A DNA stretch of 64,000 nt. Origin: an uncultured Prochlorococcus sp. GTDB lineage: Bacteria; Cyanobacteriota; Cyanobacteriia; PCC-6307; Cyanobiaceae. The notes beneath the pieces were generated by a model. It made no database searches and was not told the DNA's origin. It saw only the letters and a program-made list of their open reading frames with translations. The first letter of the stretch is position 1, and every line of letters starts with the position of its first letter. The DNA lies in contig CACPKH010000004.1 in the NCBI GenBank assembly GCA_902634515.1, positions 1 to 64,000 on the forward strand, written 5' to 3'. Below, one piece after another: positions 4,868-47,589 of the stretch. The translations under genes and the position numbers were made by a program.

Positions 4868-6997
4868 ATGCAAAAAAACATATCCACATTACTAATTGGC
4901 AAAGGACTTCCTAATTACAAGGAAATAACTCCTGATGAAGTCAATTCAAGTATGCCTTGCTTGCTAAAGCAATTAAATAAAGAGTTTGATGCACTTGAAA
5001 AGAAAATAGAGAAAATTATAAGAAAAAAAGGAAAGCTAGATTGGTGGGTCGTAATGGAACCTCTTCAAGAAATAACTGAGAGACTTCGTTGGAGCTGGGG
5101 GGTGATATCTCACTTGAACGGAGTGTGTAATTCTAATGAACTTCGTGATGCCTATAGCTCTCAACAGTCAGATGTCATTCGCTTTAGTAATCGAGTAGGG
5201 CAAAGCAAACAACTTTATGAAGCCTTATGCGTAATCAAATCATCGCCAAAAGGTCCATTGGATATAACTCAAAAAAGGATATTAGAAAATGAACTTTTGA
5301 GTATGAAACATAAAGGAGTAGGGCTCCCAGAGAAAGAGAAAGTCGAGTTCAATAGTATTACTGAATCTATTGCTAAATTGTCTACAAATTTTAGCAATAA
5401 TGTTCTTGACTCTACACAAGAATGGTCATTACTAATTACTGATTCAGCTAAAGTAAAAGGACTTCCAAGTAGAACACTTGAAGCACTTGCTGAGACAGCA
5501 AGTGCTTCAAAAGAATATTCTGCTAACTCAGGAGACAAGTCAACTCCTGAAGAAGGACCTTGGTTGATTACATTAGATATGCCAACATACATAGCTGTAA
5601 TAACTTATGCAGACAATAGAGCTCTAAGAGAAAAAATCTATAAGGCTTACATAAGTAGAGCTAGTTCAGGGAAATTAAATAATCAAGAGATAATTAAAAA
5701 GATTCTTTGCCTTAGAAAGCAACAAGCAAATTTATTAGGATACAAAAATTGGGCTGATCTTAGCCTCGCGACCAAAATGGCTCAGGATGTAAAAGAAGTT
5801 GAAATACTATTAGAAGAATTAAGAGAAGCATCAATGTTGGCCGCAAAAAAGGAGCTAAAAGAACTTCAAAAATTAGCAGCCAAGATGTCTCCTAAAAACG
5901 CTTATAAAGACGGTATTGCTCCTTGGGATGTGAGTTATCTATCAGAAAAGCTGAGACAAGAAAAGTTTAATCTAAATCAAGAATCATTGAGGCCATGGTT
6001 TCCACTACCTCAAGTACTTAAAGGTCTATTTCAACTAAGCAAAAGGCTTTTTGACATCTCAATTGAACAAGAATTCAATCATTTCCCAAAATGGCATAAA
6101 GATGTCCAACTATTTAATGTATTGAATTCTAATGGAGAAAAAATTGCCTCCTTTTACCTTGATCCTTACTCAAGGCCATCTAGCAAAAGAGGTGGTGCAT
6201 GGATGGATGAATGTTTAAACAGAGACGCTACAAACAAAGAGAATATTGTGCTGCCTGTTGCATATTTGATTTGCAATCAAACACCACCTGTTGGGGGAAA
6301 ACCAAGCCTCATGAGTTTTGACGAGGTTAAAACCCTTTTTCATGAGTTTGGTCATGGTTTACAGCATATGCTTACTAATGTTGACTACCCACAAGCTGCA
6401 GGAATAAATAATGTCGAATGGGATGCAGTAGAGCTACCAAGTCAGTTTATGGAGAATTGGTGTCTTGATAAAACAACGATACAGTCAATAGCTAAACATT
6501 GGCAAACTGGAGAACCTCTACCAAATGCAGAATATGAGAAATTAAAGAAGAGCCAAACATTTAACTCAGGTCTAACTACACTTAGACAAGTTTGCTTTGC
6601 ATTGACGGATATTAAATTACATAGTGAATGGGATGAGAAACTAAAGATAACTCCAGACGCATTTAGGAGACATATTTCAAAATATACAACTGTAATAGAG
6701 CCAATTAAAGAAGATCAATTCTTATGTGCCTTTAGCCATATCTTTGCAGGGGGATATTCAGCAGGATACTATTCTTATAAGTGGGCTGAGGTCCTTAGTG
6801 CAGATGCTTTTTCTGCATTTGAAGAAGTCGGTTTAGACAAAGAAGAAGGAATAAGAAAAAAAGGCATCCTGTTCCGTGATACTGTCTTAAGCCTAGGTGG
6901 GAGTAGAACTCCAAAGGATATATTTAATTTATTCCGAGGAAGGCCTGCAAATACAAAAGCTCTTATTAGACATTCAGGACTTGTATCAACTAACTAA
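4868..6997 (+). CDS. prlC: M3-family oligopeptidase (oligopeptidase A-like)
   Basis: A cytoplasmic zinc metallopeptidase that clips short peptides, probably products of larger proteases. At 709 residues it matches the M3A family. The zinc-binding HEFGH motif begins at residue 492, with the downstream Glu in the NNVEWDAVELPSQFMENW region that supplies the third ligand. An N-terminal helical domain comes first. Around residues 198-235 the protein carries a low-complexity stretch rich in Ala, Ser, Glu and Lys, and the DNA encoding its start forms a perfect 14-bp inverted repeat. The stop overlaps the stop of the convergent hydrolase gene by 8 bases. Confidence 0.92.
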   Translation: MQKNISTLLIGKGLPNYKEITPDEVNSSMPCLLKQLNKEFDALEKKIEKIIRKKGKLDWWVVMEPLQEITERLRWSWGVISHLNGVCNSNELRDAYSSQQSDVIRFSNRVGQSKQLYEALCVIKSSPKGPLDITQKRILENELLSMKHKGVGLPEKEKVEFNSITESIAKLSTNFSNNVLDSTQEWSLLITDSAKVKGLPSRTLEALAETASASKEYSANSGDKSTPEEGPWLITLDMPTYIAVITYADNRALREKIYKAYISRASSGKLNNQEIIKKILCLRKQQANLLGYKNWADLSLATKMAQDVKEVEILLEELREASMLAAKKELKELQKLAAKMSPKNAYKDGIAPWDVSYLSEKLRQEKFNLNQESLRPWFPLPQVLKGLFQLSKRLFDISIEQEFNHFPKWHKDVQLFNVLNSNGEKIASFYLDPYSRPSSKRGGAWMDECLNRDATNKENIVLPVAYLICNQTPPVGGKPSLMSFDEVKTLFHEFGHGLQHMLTNVDYPQAAGINNVEWDAVELPSQFMENWCLDKTTIQSIAKHWQTGEPLPNAEYEKLKKSQTFNSGLTTLRQVCFALTDIKLHSEWDEKLKITPDAFRRHISKYTTVIEPIKEDQFLCAFSHIFAGGYSAGYYSYKWAEVLSADAFSAFEEVGLDKEEGIRKKGILFRDTVLSLGGSRTPKDIFNLFRGRPANTKALIRHSGLVSTN
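5478..5510. repeat. Perfect 14-bp inverted repeat inside the oligopeptidase gene
   Basis: The left arm TTGAAGCACTTGCT (5478-5491) and right arm AGCAAGTGCTTCAA (5497-5510) are exact reverse complements separated by five bases (GAGAC). The repeat lies wholly within the coding sequence and encodes part of LEALAETASASK. No T-run follows it, so it does not look like an intrinsic terminator. Its RNA would form a very stable hairpin about 600 bases into the message. Its function is unknown. Confidence 0.9.
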
Positions 6998-21548: not shown

Positions 21549-21582
21549 AGAGGGCCTTATAAAAATAAGGCCCTCTTTTTTT
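21549..21582 (+). terminator. Strong intrinsic terminator after petE
   Basis: A perfect 10-bp stem (21550-21559 with 21566-21575), extended by an A-T pair, is formed by GAGGGCCTTA and TAAGGCCCTC around a short A-rich loop. A run of seven T follows (21576-21582), and the left side is preceded by A residues, so the element may also work weakly in reverse. It lies about 23 bases after the petE stop and separates petE from the Nif11 gene. Confidence 0.95.
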
Positions 21583-35500: not shown

Positions 35501-36301
35501 CTCGCTGGAGACTGCCTTCACAGAATACTAGAAAGAATAGATTTCTCACTTCCTATTCATGATAAAAATACTACTCTAATAATATCTGAGGAATTGCGAA
35601 AGAATGATATTGATCAAAGTCTTTTGGATAATGTAAAGGATGGTCTAAATAGAGTATTTACTATGCCACTGGGGCAGAATTTTAAATACAAAAAATTAAG
35701 TGAAGTCAAATTTCACAATAGAATTAGTGAACTACATTTTGATCTCTCTTTATCTAATGCAGAAAATAAAGTTAGAGCAGTAGATATATCGAGAATACTT
35801 CAACGTATTCCAAAAGAGCATTACTTAAACAACTACTATAAAAAGATAGCTAATCTGAATATATGTAGCCATGGGTTTCTTACTGGGTCCATTGATTTAG
35901 TCTTGCCAAATCAAGATGATATTAAAAAAGCAAGTTGGTGGGTAGTTGATTGGAAAAGTAATTGGCTAGGGGAGCCGGCTGAAGAAGGTTCAGTACCTTC
36001 TTGCGGACCGTTTAATTATAATCAAAGCAAAATGCAATCAGAAATGATCCATCACCACTATCCTTTACAAGCTTATTTATATTTAGTTGCACTTCATAGA
36101 TTCCTACGCTGGAGGTTGCCTGGCTATTCTCCCAAAGTACATTTAGGAGGTTACAAATATCTCTTTTTGCGAGGAATGCCCACTGAAAAAGAAATTATAA
36201 GCAACTCTCACGAGAAAAATTTACCTGGTTCAATAACAGAAAAAGCGCCTATAGATATCGTACTCAAATTAGATCAACTTATTAGTAGTGGATCTGTATG
36301 A
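32525..36301 (+). CDS. recB: RecBCD exonuclease V, beta subunit (helicase and nuclease)
   Basis: The 3'-5' helicase and only nuclease of RecBCD. The 1258-residue UvrD-family protein has Walker A ASAGTGKT at residues 24-31, VVSFTKAT (motif Ia), LIDEFQDTDPVQW (motif II), GDPKQAIYKFRGGD (motif III), ITVHRSKGLQFKVVI (motif V) and YVAITRAQKHL (motif VI). The C-terminal nuclease domain is recognisable from GSIDLVL and VVDWKSNWL near residue 1139, the Asp-x-Lys active site. Translation starts from GTG 32525. Its last codons overlap recD by 4 bases, which supports coupled synthesis. Confidence 0.96.
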   Translation: MKKTIIEFAPNNYPLEPGVRLIEASAGTGKTFTLAHLVLRLLTEKEYPIDQILVVSFTKATSSEIKSRISERITQALNGIERATTNYEEMGIDNVLIEWLHKISDNKLKQERWANLLLKALSSIDNADITTIHGFCNRILTREALDIGSPLDIQATTDDENFEIVKSIVHDYWKSQILSLHPSDLKGIYLAGITLDKLVNYLVEIDNDPSLNFIIDQANFDISKSLSSQFNNCKKRCWEDFTDLWKKGGINLNKDLKGLALSLRELGKNDTKPFSPKPRRDRYLELNEWVNDLNVNYKTTQSCGPFYEEIRAQSLIKEYFHPQKMSEVLRRNNMDEYKSIDSELQQAIADLWDKPSEFVLEYSLCWTLKALRERRKQSGLISYSEQLKVLDPKHNEVTSSKSLLQKVSLDYRVALIDEFQDTDPVQWRIFKEAFAKHPRNLLIIVGDPKQAIYKFRGGDLNTYLQAKAEAERCDSLLTNYRTTIPLINTLNKLMKPGLINSNLKIPNLFPGSNLQPLSHQDPPLEVLTLQNEHRNSNESRSYSKSYFERKIPKAVANSILELLSIHKKGLELEDICIIVRSHNQVEKIRKTLSEAGLATRLINKGDVFNTEGAYLLQKLLICLSNPTSIYNIKALSCSALLNWEIEKLSKNEQNDSIDLLIQKFRNWSKNLKQTGLIGCLSELLDSKSFAKLANQPRVLNDLLQCAQLVEEVIHINDLDAKGASRWFQQERQLPRENIPDERHPNSDMAEKAINIITVHRSKGLQFKVVICPYLWQAPPLPKGPLWRLESDQRWLLSQNVNWGPGVKVIRNAINESIQEAERLAYVAITRAQKHLIIFWCNATHQESNPLRTFLFGPHCETVKNNDLSIEKIQEWFDRNNINASLRSIDANKLNGYFINRQQTKNLTIGPILKRSLDIYWGRFSYSSWTSNIVDKNNMFVNPESIEEGRDIDQKESYITKTNTNETSEILLDSSQSNNWSKSNPLERFPKGPLAGDCLHRILERIDFSLPIHDKNTTLIISEELRKNDIDQSLLDNVKDGLNRVFTMPLGQNFKYKKLSEVKFHNRISELHFDLSLSNAENKVRAVDISRILQRIPKEHYLNNYYKKIANLNICSHGFLTGSIDLVLPNQDDIKKASWWVVDWKSNWLGEPAEEGSVPSCGPFNYNQSKMQSEMIHHHYPLQAYLYLVALHRFLRWRLPGYSPKVHLGGYKYLFLRGMPTEKEIISNSHEKNLPGSITEKAPIDIVLKLDQLISSGSV

Positions 36302-38019
36302 AAAAATCAAATAAAAATCGAATACATACAACATTAGGGGAAGCTCTAACTGAGACTTTAATCAGAAGTTTCCCAACCAATGCTTCATATGAATACATTG
36401 AAGATATTGTTAATGCACTTATTGGCTGTCTTTCTAGAGGTGAAATATATTTAAATTTTAACAATGATTCGAATGCTCCTAGTGAAATAAAACAGCAAGG
36501 TTGGCCTATGGCTCATCACAAAGCATTATTAGAAAGTGGGTGGTTAAACAAAAAGAATGCTCCAATCGTTTTAGAGAACAATCTTCTGAGTTGGAGACGC
36601 TGGCATCTTCAAATGAAAGAAGTTCTAGACGTGTTAATAAAAAAAACATATCAAAAGCCTAATACTTCAATTAAAAATATTCAAAGCAACGAAAAAATCA
36701 AAGATTCTATATCCTCAAGATTAAACAAAGAGCAACTGTTGGCTGTTGAAAAGGTTTCTAATCAGAGCTTAATTCTATTGTCAGGTGGACCTGGAACTGG
36801 AAAAACTAGTACTGTTGCTCAAATGCTGGTTAAAGCGCTCTCCTCAAGACCATCCTTGAAGATTGGACTCGGTGCACCTACAGGTAAAGCGACAAGAAGA
36901 CTGCAGGACTCATTGCAACAAGCCGTAAAAGATCTCTGTGACAAAGATAGGGATAAACTCTCAAAAGTAACTTGTTTAACTCTGCATAAATGGTTGCAGG
37001 CTAAAGATAGCGGTTTCTTGAGAAACTCTTCAAATCCATTACAACTAGATCTTTTAGTTGTTGATGAGATGTCAATGGTTGATCTAACACTAATGGAAGG
37101 ATTAGTAGAAGCCTTACCTCATGATAGCCAACTGATTCTTGTAGGCGATTTCAATCAATTACCTCCCGTCGGTAGTGGTGCTATATGGCACTACCTAAAT
37201 CAAGAAAGTAATGTAAGTCAAGATTTTGCTAAATCAACAATAAATTTAACCAAAGTCTATCGAAACCGTGGGGATTTAGCACTCTTGGCAAAGCTATTAA
37301 ATACTAGAGGTATGGATTCATATTGGGAAAAATTAAAAAGTTTCAAGACATCATCAAATGTCACTTTACAAATATCTAGCAAGGACCTAATGCCAAGTCG
37401 CATAACAAATAAAATTAATGAACATCATAAAAAAATAAGGGAAATTGCTAAAAGGATATCAATAAAAACATATTCCTTAATCAACAAAGAAGAAGAGTGC
37501 CAAATGGTTCATACATCTGAGGAGCTCTTTTCTTGTTTAGAAGAACTACTGGTTTTATGTCCAAGAAAATATGGTTATTGGAGTGTCGAACATGTTAATA
37601 AGACTATATTAGGTAGTTTATTATCAGAAGATGTTTCCCTTTGGCCAGAAGGTGTACCTGTCATATGTGGGTCAAATCAACCAGAACTTGGAATAGCAAA
37701 TGGAGATATTGGAGTAACAGTTGGTGAAGGCGAATATCGATATCTATTATTTAGAGTCATAGATGATAGTCACGCACAAGTTCCAAAGCTAATACATCCA
37801 GCAAGACTTAAGCTCTACGATGCAGCATTTGCCATGACGATTCATAAAGCCCAAGGGAGTGAATCCAAGCATGTCATTATGTTATGGCCAAACCAATTGG
37901 ATACTAAAGATATAAAAGAAAATACAAATAATGATTATGAGAAAAGACTGCTTTATACAGGTATAACAAGAGCAAAAGAAACTTTGGATGTATTGTTAGC
38001 TGAACATATTAAAGATTAA
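36298..38019 (+). CDS. recD: RecBCD exonuclease V, alpha subunit
   Basis: The fast 5'-3' helicase of RecBCD. The 573-residue SF1B protein has Walker A GGPGTGKTST near residues 163-172, the motif Ia-like GAPTGKATRRL, Walker B VVDEMSMVDL, motif III GDFNQLPPVGSGA, and the C-terminal AMTIHKAQGSE plus YTGITRAKETL. The order and length match RecD of the RecBCD complex rather than the longer RecD2. The start ATG overlaps the recB stop in an ATGA arrangement. Presence of all three subunits indicates a working complex. Confidence 0.95.
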   Translation: MKKSNKNRIHTTLGEALTETLIRSFPTNASYEYIEDIVNALIGCLSRGEIYLNFNNDSNAPSEIKQQGWPMAHHKALLESGWLNKKNAPIVLENNLLSWRRWHLQMKEVLDVLIKKTYQKPNTSIKNIQSNEKIKDSISSRLNKEQLLAVEKVSNQSLILLSGGPGTGKTSTVAQMLVKALSSRPSLKIGLGAPTGKATRRLQDSLQQAVKDLCDKDRDKLSKVTCLTLHKWLQAKDSGFLRNSSNPLQLDLLVVDEMSMVDLTLMEGLVEALPHDSQLILVGDFNQLPPVGSGAIWHYLNQESNVSQDFAKSTINLTKVYRNRGDLALLAKLLNTRGMDSYWEKLKSFKTSSNVTLQISSKDLMPSRITNKINEHHKKIREIAKRISIKTYSLINKEEECQMVHTSEELFSCLEELLVLCPRKYGYWSVEHVNKTILGSLLSEDVSLWPEGVPVICGSNQPELGIANGDIGVTVGEGEYRYLLFRVIDDSHAQVPKLIHPARLKLYDAAFAMTIHKAQGSESKHVIMLWPNQLDTKDIKENTNNDYEKRLLYTGITRAKETLDVLLAEHIKD

Positions 38020-38117
38020 AACAAAAAAGTTTTGTAAGTAGACTAATGAAATGGTAAATTAATCATATCCTTTAAAAAGGCCTGTCAACAAGGTACGGTC
38101 ATATACCGAATTGGAGG

Positions 38118-38154
38118 TTGTCTGCCTGAATTTTAGGAAATCTAAGGCAGACAA
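38118..38154 (+). promoter_or_regulatory. 5' leader hairpin before the DEAD-box helicase gene
   Basis: The arms TTGTCTGCCT (38118-38127) and AGGCAGACAA (38145-38154) pair perfectly over 10 bp around a 17-base loop. The right arm ends 9 bases before the ATG, exactly where a ribosome would bind, and a GGAGG at 38113-38117 abuts the left arm. There is no T-run, so it is not a typical terminator. A role in temperature-dependent or autogenous control of the RNA helicase is a reasonable inference, since bacterial cold-shock helicases are often regulated through leader structure. Confidence 0.65.
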
Positions 38155-38163
38155 TCTAATTAA

Positions 38164-39966
38164 ATGACAACAGTAAAGTCAAATGTTGATTCCACTCGTT
38201 TAGAGAATACGGAGGACATCAAATCAACAGAAATTTCATCAACAGATAACTACTCTGAAGGAGATGAAAAGCTATCTGCCTTAAATACAGAATTACACTC
38301 TCAAGAAGGCTTCAGTTCCTTTGGATTTAGTGATGGGTTAATAAGAACACTTGAAAAGAAAGGCTATAAAGAACCTACTCCAATACAAAAAGAAGCCATA
38401 CCAGAATTAATGCTAGGAAGAGACTTGCTAGGTCAAGCTCAAACAGGTACAGGCAAAACAGCAGCATTTGCTTTACCAATTCTTGAAAGAATAAGCCCAA
38501 CAAATGGTCGTCCTCAAGTTCTTGTCCTTACACCAACTAGAGAACTTGCTTTGCAAGTTGCTGATTCATTTAATGCATATGCAGAGGGTCATCAGGGAAT
38601 AAAAATCTTAGCTGTGTATGGAGGTTCAGACTTTCGTTCTCAAATAAATGCACTGAAAAGAGGTGTTGATGTAGTTGTAGGAACTCCTGGCCGAGTGATG
38701 GACCATATGCGACAAAGTACTTTGCTTCAAAAAGAATTACAGACTCTAGTTTTAGATGAAGCTGACGAAATGCTTAGAATGGGTTTTATTGATGATATTG
38801 AATGGATTCTTGAGCAACTACCAGAAGAAAAGCAAATGATATTGTTTTCTGCAACTATGCCGTCAGAGATTAGACGATTATCTAAAAGATATCTACATAA
38901 TCCAGCAGAGATAACTATAAAGGCAAAGAAAAAAGATGCCCAATTAATTAGGCAAAAATATATAACTATACAAAACAGCTATAAACTTGCTGCATTAAAA
39001 AGAGTTTTAGAAATAAGTGCTAAAGAAGCCGTGATAATTTTCGCTAGAACCAAAGTAATTACACAAAGACTTGCAGAAGCATTAGAAGCTGCAAATCATA
39101 ATGTAGCAGTGCTTAATGGTGATGTTCCCCAGAATTTAAGAGAGAGAACAATTGAAAGATTAAAACTTGGAGGTATTGATATTTTAGTAGCTACAGATGT
39201 CGCCGCCAGAGGACTAGATGTAGAAAGAATCGAGCTTGTAATTAACTACGATATGCCATTTGATACTGAGGCATATGTTCATAGAATTGGAAGAACTGGT
39301 AGAGCTGGTAGGAATGGAGAAGCGATACTTTTCGTAAGCCCTAGAGAAAAATCTTACTTAAATAACTTAGAAAGAGTAGTTGGCCAAAAAATAGAAAAAA
39401 TGGAAGTCCCCAATAACGAATTTATTAATCAATTTCGGATAGAAAAGTTAAAAACAGAGCTTGCTTCTGAAACAGAAAATAAAAAAGATGATGATAAGGA
39501 AAGTTCAATCCTTAGCAAATTAGTTGATGAATTGGAAACAGAATTTGAAATGAGTCCCAGACAAGTTGCCATGAATGCATTGAAACTTGCTACTGGTAAA
39601 TCACAGCTATTAATCAATGAAGATGAAAGCTGGCTAACTAAACAAGACACTTTTCGTCGAAGGAATGAACGTTATGATGACAGAAGCAGATCTAGGCGAA
39701 GGAATTCTTTCGATTCAAGGTCACCAGAAAAAGATAAACAACGTTACAGATTGGATGTTGGCCATAAAGATCATGTAAAACCAGGAAATATCGTAGGTGC
39801 AATTGCAAATGAAAGTGGTTTAAAAGGGAAAATGATAGGTCGTATTCAAATCTTTGAAGACCACAGTTTGGTTGATCTACCAAAAGGAATGCCAACAAAT
39901 ATATTTCACAACCTTAAAAGAGTTAAAGTAATGAATAAAGAATTAAATATAACTCTAAGCAATTAA
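38164..39966 (+). CDS. deaD: DEAD-box RNA helicase (CsdA/DeaD type)
   Basis: Unwinds RNA duplexes with ATP and helps ribosome assembly and cold adaptation. The 600-residue protein has an acidic N-terminal tail, then Q-motif, AQTGTGKT (about 93-100), PTRELALQ, TPGRVMD, DEADEML (about 197), SAT, VATDVAARGLD and HRIGRTGRAGR. After about residue 500 comes a charged RSRSRRR linker and a DbpA/CsdA-type RNA-binding domain (about 530-590, with VGAIANESGL and IGRIQIFEDHSLVDLP). A frame stop directly precedes ATG 38164, fixing the start. A hairpin occupies its leader. Confidence 0.95.
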   Translation: MTTVKSNVDSTRLENTEDIKSTEISSTDNYSEGDEKLSALNTELHSQEGFSSFGFSDGLIRTLEKKGYKEPTPIQKEAIPELMLGRDLLGQAQTGTGKTAAFALPILERISPTNGRPQVLVLTPTRELALQVADSFNAYAEGHQGIKILAVYGGSDFRSQINALKRGVDVVVGTPGRVMDHMRQSTLLQKELQTLVLDEADEMLRMGFIDDIEWILEQLPEEKQMILFSATMPSEIRRLSKRYLHNPAEITIKAKKKDAQLIRQKYITIQNSYKLAALKRVLEISAKEAVIIFARTKVITQRLAEALEAANHNVAVLNGDVPQNLRERTIERLKLGGIDILVATDVAARGLDVERIELVINYDMPFDTEAYVHRIGRTGRAGRNGEAILFVSPREKSYLNNLERVVGQKIEKMEVPNNEFINQFRIEKLKTELASETENKKDDDKESSILSKLVDELETEFEMSPRQVAMNALKLATGKSQLLINEDESWLTKQDTFRRRNERYDDRSRSRRRNSFDSRSPEKDKQRYRLDVGHKDHVKPGNIVGAIANESGLKGKMIGRIQIFEDHSLVDLPKGMPTNIFHNLKRVKVMNKELNITLSN

Positions 39967-46786: not shown

Positions 46787-47589
46787 ATTTCTAAATTCCT
46801 CTTGTCTTTCGAGACATGTTTTAAGCCTCCAAATCTACGACATCTAGATTGGTAATCCAAAAGTGCTTTTATTAAGGCATTCTCATCAAAATCAGGCCAT
46901 AAAGTTTCTGTAATATAAATCTCCGAATAAGCCAATTGCCAAAGCAAGAAATTGCTAATTCGTCTTTCTCCACTAGTCCTAATTAGAAGATCAGGATCAA
47001 CTTCATTAGCTGTAGAAAGCTCAGCAGCAAAGACATTTTCATCTATCAATGCAGGATCTATCTCGCCATTGACTGACCTTAATGCAAGTCTTTGAGCTGC
47101 TTTTACTAATTCTCTCCTTCCTCCATAATTTGTACAGACATTAAAATTAATACCTGTGTTCTTTGCTGTGAGAGTTGTGGCTTCAAGTATTAAATCCTGC
47201 AATTCACTGGAAAGTTTTTCTAAGTCTCCTAAAAAACTTATTCTTACCTTTTGTAGTTTCAAAGATTCTAACTCTCTTTTTAAAACTCTTTTAAAAAGAG
47301 TCATTAAAAAACCAACTTCCTCTCCAGGTCTAGACCAATTTTCTGTAGAAAAGGCATATACCGTCAAAGCCCCTACTCCCCAATTACTGCATAATTTCAA
47401 AGTTGTCTTTAATGCATCAACTCCTGCTGTATGACCCATTGCTCGTGGTAGTCCCTTTGCCTTTGCCCAACGACCATTACCATCCATGATTACAGCAATA
47501 TGTTCTGGTATCCGAAGGGGATCTAATTCCTTCGGAAAAGAAAAAGTGAGACGTTTTTCTTGAGGTGTGATTGACGAAGACTTCGTCAT
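46783..47589 (-). CDS. uppS: Isoprenyl transferase (undecaprenyl diphosphate synthase)
   Basis: Elongates farnesyl diphosphate by cis-condensation to the C55 carrier used in peptidoglycan and polysaccharide synthesis. The 268-residue protein has the catalytic segment [16 protein letters not shown] with Asp 36, then [32 protein letters not shown] and [23 protein letters not shown] in the expected order. A variable N-terminal tail of about 28 residues precedes it. It overlaps both cdaA (upstream) and bioB (downstream) by 4 bases. Confidence 0.95.

Follow-up and report, generated by a model that had tools for sequence, protein, structure and literature searches.

The window, by which we mean the whole 64-kb stretch of DNA analysed, contains a gene for a CsdA/DeaD-like DEAD-box RNA helicase, and both the DeaD-dimerisation domain and the DbpA domain (E 2.2e-23) were recognised in its product (Table 1). 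According to a survey (PMC8190605), helicases of the CsdA-like type occur in Prochlorococcus, Synechococcus, Cyanobium and Acaryochloris, plus four strains with all three types, and hairpin 92 of 23S rRNA is named as the target of the DbpA domain; the same survey describes CrhR as devoid of this domain, belonging to a separate clade and encoded in the rimO-crhR operon. A CrhR-like (rimO-crhR) assignment was tried for the window gene and rejected: the DbpA domain is present, and the upstream gene encodes a RecD-like protein with AAA and UvrD_C_2 domains. A cold-induced helicase of Synechococcus WH7803 is reported as CrhR in PMC7393227, and it is our guess that it corresponds to the CsdA-like gene studied here.

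The RecD-like gene of the window occupies positions 36298–38019. When 22 leaders were inspected and grouped by eye, the C-terminal motif of this gene was seen upstream in 11 of them, and the other 11 were preceded by a short protein with an end like ..EDDIERLxDDYGR, which we take to resemble a cupin. Despite the differing upstream genes, the promoter box, the leader and the helicase gene remained together in this sample.

Table 1. Elements of the helicase leader and the helicase gene, in positions of the window
Feature	Position	Strand	Comment
Extended −10 promoter box TGGTAAATT	38052..38060	+	Conserved in relatives
Segment 1 CCTTTAAAA	38069..38077	+	5' strand of P0 (state I) or P1 (state II)
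Box A AGGCCTGTCAAC	38078..38089	+	Supplies AGGC and CAAC as the 5' side of long-range helix P2
P3 hairpin CGGT..ACCG, inside P2	38096..38108	+	Found by RNAalifold
Box C GTTGTCTGCCT	38117..38127	+	State I: 3' side of P2; state II: left arm of the start-proximal hairpin
Apical loop segment TTTTAGG	38131..38137	+	State I: 3' side of P0
P4/P5 hairpin, state II, 13 bp	38115..38157	+	Core is the 10-bp stem 38118–38154
CsdA/DeaD-like DEAD-box RNA helicase with DbpA RNA-binding domain, 600 aa	38164..39966	+	Domain matches

Eighty orthologue loci were fetched. In two of them (L028 and L093) a contig end truncates the locus, and these stay outside the leader counts; all 78 others, which have sufficient upstream sequence, contain the element with its two recurrent boxes, detected by pattern in 77 loci and by eye in L088. 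These are box A (CCUUU..AAGGC..CAAC) and box C (GUUGUCUGCCUGAUUUGAAGGA..UCAGGC, the commonest form, which stops shortly upstream of the start codon). The counts over 78 leaders given throughout refer to the 77 pattern loci plus the window, with L088 excluded and some of the sequences identical. The distance from box A to the start codon ranges among them from 79 to 202 nt, the 95 nt of the window being the median, and the spacing between the boxes is the most variable length, reaching 171 nt in L088. An extended −10 box is situated 8–14 nt upstream of box A; its strict form was registered in 47 of the 78 leaders vs 0.4% in shuffles, and a looser form in 66. We infer that transcription is to be expected to start a few bases upstream of segment 1. 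A start downstream of position 38127, the case which the first-pass annotation had raised against its own hairpin, appears unlikely because the extended −10 box is conserved.

A covariance model built on 58 distinct leaders matched 100 of 201 family genomes, once in each, and across the phylum it matched 23 of 292 genomes, 22 of them within the family. Fifty matches were fetched (30 of the 100 in the family set and 20 of the phylum set, many of which repeat species of the orthologue set), and the helicase gene adjoins 49 of them. The exception, locus L144 in genome G456, is the sole match outside the family; it was dismissed as chance since it lies inside another ORF, which in our reading of the letters looks like a TPR protein, and since G456 yielded no helicase at E ≤ 1e-60. 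The model left 101 family genomes unmatched; the helicase protein was used to examine 27 of these, G456 being the 28th genome of this series. The helicase was found in 19 of the 28 and the boxes were visible by eye in 17 of these 19, so that the model misses diverged and long-insert leaders; nine of the 17 are included in the statistics on 87 sequences presented below. Box-bearing genomes of this kind include six of genus g17, taken for high-light Prochlorococcus, with leaders of a diverged form. The two genomes without visible boxes are represented by L146, which is truncated, and L163 (G010), where the 176 nt upstream of the family helicase have another hairpin, CAAAGAGTTG..CAACTCTTTG, and no recognisable boxes. 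A repeat element was considered as well and rejected: a DNA search with the leader region in the genome of the window hit a single place, and the model gave one match per genome. Computation supports the conserved element, its promoter box and its linkage to the helicase, and as far as the sequences tell the helicase gene has kept this leader upstream in Prochlorococcus, marine Synechococcus and Cyanobium.

The hairpin by which the first-pass annotation had singled out this locus was described as a perfect 10-bp stem with 9 bases to the ATG, and re-reading of the sequence proved its coordinates correct: the left arm TTGTCTGCCT (38118–38127) is fully complementary to AGGCAGACAA (38145–38154), the loop has 17 nt, and the ATG at 38164 follows after 9 bases. 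By means of flanking A-U, G-C and G-U pairs the stem grows to 13 bp (38115–38127/38145–38157), leaving 6 nt to the ATG. The folding energy of the region 38105–38175 is −21 kcal/mol (z = −4.08), and none of 200 shuffles was equally stable. A Watson-Crick stem of at least 10 pairs with a loop of 3–20 appeared in 12 of 2000 dinucleotide shuffles of 38020–38163, and nine separate stems of this kind, the present one included, were counted in the window. Within the window the 10-bp hairpin is unusual, not unique. Further perfect stems of 12 to 15 pairs are located there at 5478–5510, 21549–21576 and 47274–47300.

Comparison with relatives changed the meaning of this hairpin. At least 10 contiguous pairs were registered in 3 of the 78 leaders (the window, L016 and L030), and 9 in L017, the other genus mate of the window. 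The long form of the stem is lineage-specific, and the expectation that it would be a conserved element was not borne out; far wider conservation is seen for the left arm and for the short GCCU/AGGC stem. The search for compensatory changes in orthologues, which had been proposed along with the hairpin, gave a divided answer: the outer part of the long stem is without covariation, genus mates carrying nearly one version of it; in the wider element the helices are supported as such, and covariation of individual pairs is weak. The hairpin is one arm of a longer conserved leader RNA. The supposition of a structured leader before the helicase start holds family-wide, behind the leader's own conserved promoter box; what had been overlooked is a competing upstream pairing of the left arm.

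This competing pairing emerged when RNAalifold was applied to 58 leaders with no structure given: it chose helix P2, formed by box A with box C, together with P3, and not the start-proximal hairpin. Outside P2, and nested with it, helix P0 joins the 5' end, typically CCUUUGAA or CCUUUAAA, with the loop segment UUUGAAGG. P0, P2 and P3 make up state I. On alignment A1, composed of 58 distinct Prochlorococcus/Synechococcus-type leaders, 90.3% of the cells of these three helices are in standard pairs vs 85.7% in shuffled and 24–47% in slid alignments, and 53 cells are changed on both sides vs 12.1 in shuffles. P3 alone has 92.2% of its cells paired on A1, with both-side changes in three of four pairs. 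The longest complement between the 5' segment and the loop averages 7.23 nt over the 78 leaders vs 4.70 (sd 0.11) for shuffled loops and 6.55 for exchanged partners; over 87 leaders the longest complement is 4.93 vs 3.98 (sd 0.10) for P2b and 7.18 vs 5.11 (sd 0.11) for P0.

Both helices change their strands jointly among lineages: CACAACC/GGUUGUG, CGCAAUC/GAUUGUG, GCAAU/GUUGC, GGCAG/CUGCC and UCAACAA/UUGUUGA were found in P2b, and CUUUGAAG/UUUCAGAG, CCUUUGU/ACGAAGG, CCUUUGAU/AUUGAAGG and GAACUUC/GAAGUUU in P0. Parsimony on the helicase tree placed pair-keeping double changes at six of the eight P2b positions (b1, b2, b4, b5, b6 and b7). With a null in which substitutions were replayed along the same tree, column rate differences being ignored, canonical pairing as high as observed was obtained in 0 of 1000 replays for P2b (0.830 vs 0.598 expected) and in 3 of 1000 for P0 (0.857 vs 0.713 expected). 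At the level of single pairs E < 0.05 was reached by one of 15 printed pairs, b1, and on A1 alone, with every pair considered, none was significant: the lowest E value, 3.0, belongs to a pair not in the structure, and the lowest for P2 is 9.5. Helix-level conservation exceeds the tree-based null, and pair-level covariation is weak. Exchange of strands among lineages often did not lower pairing and sometimes raised it: Cyanobium-type box A scored 7.5 with Prochlorococcus box C vs 4.83 with its own. Positions b2, b7 and b8 of P2b are paired in 45, 30 and 17 of the 87 sequences. P0 is short and unclear in high-light-type leaders, and that of the window has a slipped register with 7 contiguous pairs, G-U included, being weaker than in most relatives. 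The diverged leaders L154–L159 of genus g17 have a longer P2, UCAACAA/UUGUUGA.

The GCCU of box C has two exclusive conserved partners, as befits one strand of a bistable RNA. With AGGC of box A it is paired in 98–100% of A1 rows (three G-C pairs), and with the AGGC just upstream of the start codon, in helix P4, in 96.6–100% for four base pairs; since both strands are nearly invariant, covariation is unable to confirm either pairing. In this second arrangement, state II, 90.6% of cells are paired in P4, 86.6% in P1 at the 5' end and 65.9% in P5, its outer part (all on A1); both-side changes are absent from P1 and P5 and were seen in two pairs of P4, one cell each. Segment 1 is paired in turn either with the apical loop segment (P0, state I) or with 38076–38080 (P1, state II). 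In the window's genus P5 extends into the long stem, and this long P4/P5 form is limited to the window and L016 (and L030). Variants of P4 visible by eye in L154–L159 are GCCUGAU/AUCAGGU, GCCUAAU/AUUGGGC and GCCUAAU/AUUAGGC. The two alternative pairings are supported by computation. One more helix, P6, formed by box A with the stretch before the start codon, is strong in L041, L056, L062, L069, L152 and L160. Over all 65 leaders tested its margin is modest (5.11 nt vs 4.54 with sd 0.11 for shuffled and 4.84 for cross-paired sequences), and as a general third pairing it was set aside; the start region may be closed by different strands in different lineages.

The first-pass annotation pointed to a GGAGG on the outer side of the left arm, which lies at 38113–38117. 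From its end to the ATG there are 46 bases, and GGAGG stands at that place in 17 of the 78 leaders, for which reasons it was rejected as a Shine-Dalgarno or ribosome-binding site; SD-like 4-mers within 15 nt of the start were detected in 1 of 78. A GTG or TTG start of the helicase was noted in 16 of the 78 leaders, all of Cyanobium type (L076–L095 group), and the remaining 62 were assigned ATG. Accessibility of the region −25..+13 was computed with 30 nt of coding sequence attached. In the window its mean unpaired probability is 0.64 in state I and 0.42 in state II, and the region is more open in state I in 71, 70 and 69 of 78 leaders at 10, 22 and 37 °C, respectively, so that lower accessibility in state II has computational support. 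The idea of a hairpin hindering ribosome entry survives, therefore, in the predicted effect of the downstream arm on accessibility of the start region, and fails in respect of GGAGG.

With both states forced at 22 °C, the energy of II minus I has a median of 0.4 kcal/mol and quartiles of −3.1 and +3.1 over 78 leaders, and the gap is within 3 kcal/mol in 34 of them, a near-equality compared against no null. In the window the difference is −10.7 kcal/mol in favour of state II, and state I may therefore matter there only in passing. Transcripts ending at the loop, where state II cannot yet form, adopt the state I fold in 77 of 78 cases; leaders up to the start codon are distributed as 41 in state I, 36 in state II and 1 other, and with 30 nt more as 37, 40 and 1. 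In the window and L017 state II prevails from 87 nt on. The median state difference at 10, 22 and 37 °C is −0.12, −0.14 and +0.17 kcal/mol, as given by an energy model for the two-state balance only. Because this predicted balance is nearly flat between 10 and 37 °C, a plain RNA thermometer is less likely and is not favoured. A broader version of the same idea, in which one hairpin alone keeps the ribosome out until warming or the helicase itself melts it (as a thermometer or in positive feedback), agrees with the stability of the window hairpin, its position 6–9 nt from the ATG and the reduced accessibility in state II. We nevertheless find it unlikely: the long stem is present in 3 of 78 leaders, its left arm has a conserved alternative partner, GGAGG provides no start-proximal SD, and the balance of states is nearly independent of temperature from 10 to 37 °C, melting of a single state lying outside the model.

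Based on these data one can assume, with about an even chance of being right, a bistable leader controlling translation of the CsdA-like helicase, which probably sets how much helicase is made. The helicase mRNA would start approximately 95–100 nt before the ATG with a leader of two exclusive folds. In state I helix P0 would join the 5' end to the apical loop segment, and P2, around P3, would join AGGC..CAAC to GUUG..GCCU; this long arm P0-P2-P3 would take up the left arm of the start-proximal hairpin, and since the leader is closed on itself, the stretch before the start codon would be open. In state II GCCU, in the window's genus the whole GUUGUCUGCCU, would be paired with the sequence just upstream of the start codon (P4/P5), making ribosome entry harder. 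State I is predicted first during transcription and state II as the more stable end state in the window's genus. Most likely the balance is moved by RNA-remodelling activity, that of the helicase included; this trigger, as well as translational control and its direction, we infer.

A bolder proposal, which we ourselves hold doubtful, is that of a homeostat: the leader would gauge the RNA-remodelling capacity of the cell, and the helicase would fold its own message into the off state. Early state I would permit translation, and the helicase would speed refolding to the closed, more stable state II; with remodelling scarce, as in the cold, messages would be trapped in state I and more helicase would be made. 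Such a device, if real, would have been preserved through the Prochlorococcus/Synechococcus/Cyanobium radiation. Doubtful too is the explanation that the leader serves the stability or the processing of the mRNA, through 5'-end pairing or an RNase E site, and is no translation switch. In its favour, segment 1 lies where the 5' end is expected and has a partner in both states (P0 or P1); taken alone, this explanation leaves open why one strand has two exclusive partners, one of them beside the start codon.

The set of Rfam 15 families searched covers described riboswitches and the cspA thermoregulator. None of them reached its gathering score in the window, and in the orthologue loci there were 4 weak chance matches in four loci (E up to 5), none within the leader. 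No description of the leader was found in the open-access literature searched. A riboswitch, or a site bound by some ligand, protein or small RNA and not by the helicase, could make use of the conserved unpaired-looking letters and the multi-helix fold, which leave room for a ligand; with no Rfam family match, and with only the helicase and no metabolic partner gene linked in the matches tested, this origin seems quite improbable. The leader also recalls a transcription attenuator in its series of four segments, whose alternative pairings are 1:2 and 3:4 vs 2:3. The hairpin is, however, followed by AATTAAATG with no U-run, and the probability of attenuation is, in our estimate, very slight; the intrinsic terminator was rejected, there being no terminator-like site in 37900–38300.

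Among photosynthetic cells, Prochlorococcus and Synechococcus belong to the most abundant. A family-wide leader dedicated to their CsdA-type helicase would allow RNA-based control of an RNA-remodelling enzyme to be put to the test, and would add a new RNA family for annotation. In classical four-segment attenuators and translational riboswitches successive segments are paired exclusively, one of them near the start codon. The helicase leader resembles them in this, and differs in that it is without a terminator, a known ligand or a noted leader peptide. Synechocystis CrhR autoregulates its expression, partly post-transcriptionally (PMC3485376), and is thus a cyanobacterial DEAD-box helicase regulating itself, a property only proposed here; CrhR differs in having no DbpA domain and forming a separate clade, and the abstract on its autoregulation names no leader structure. 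The E. coli cspA mRNA has a thermosensor leader stimulated by CspA itself (PMC9947658). The likeness consists in two leader conformations that differ in accessibility before the gene of an RNA chaperone, and in a product acting on its own mRNA, which for the helicase leader is a proposal; the differences are another gene family, no sequence-family match and a balance predicted to be nearly flat with temperature. The candidate leader RNA is, in this comparison, new, and the style of its logic is already known.
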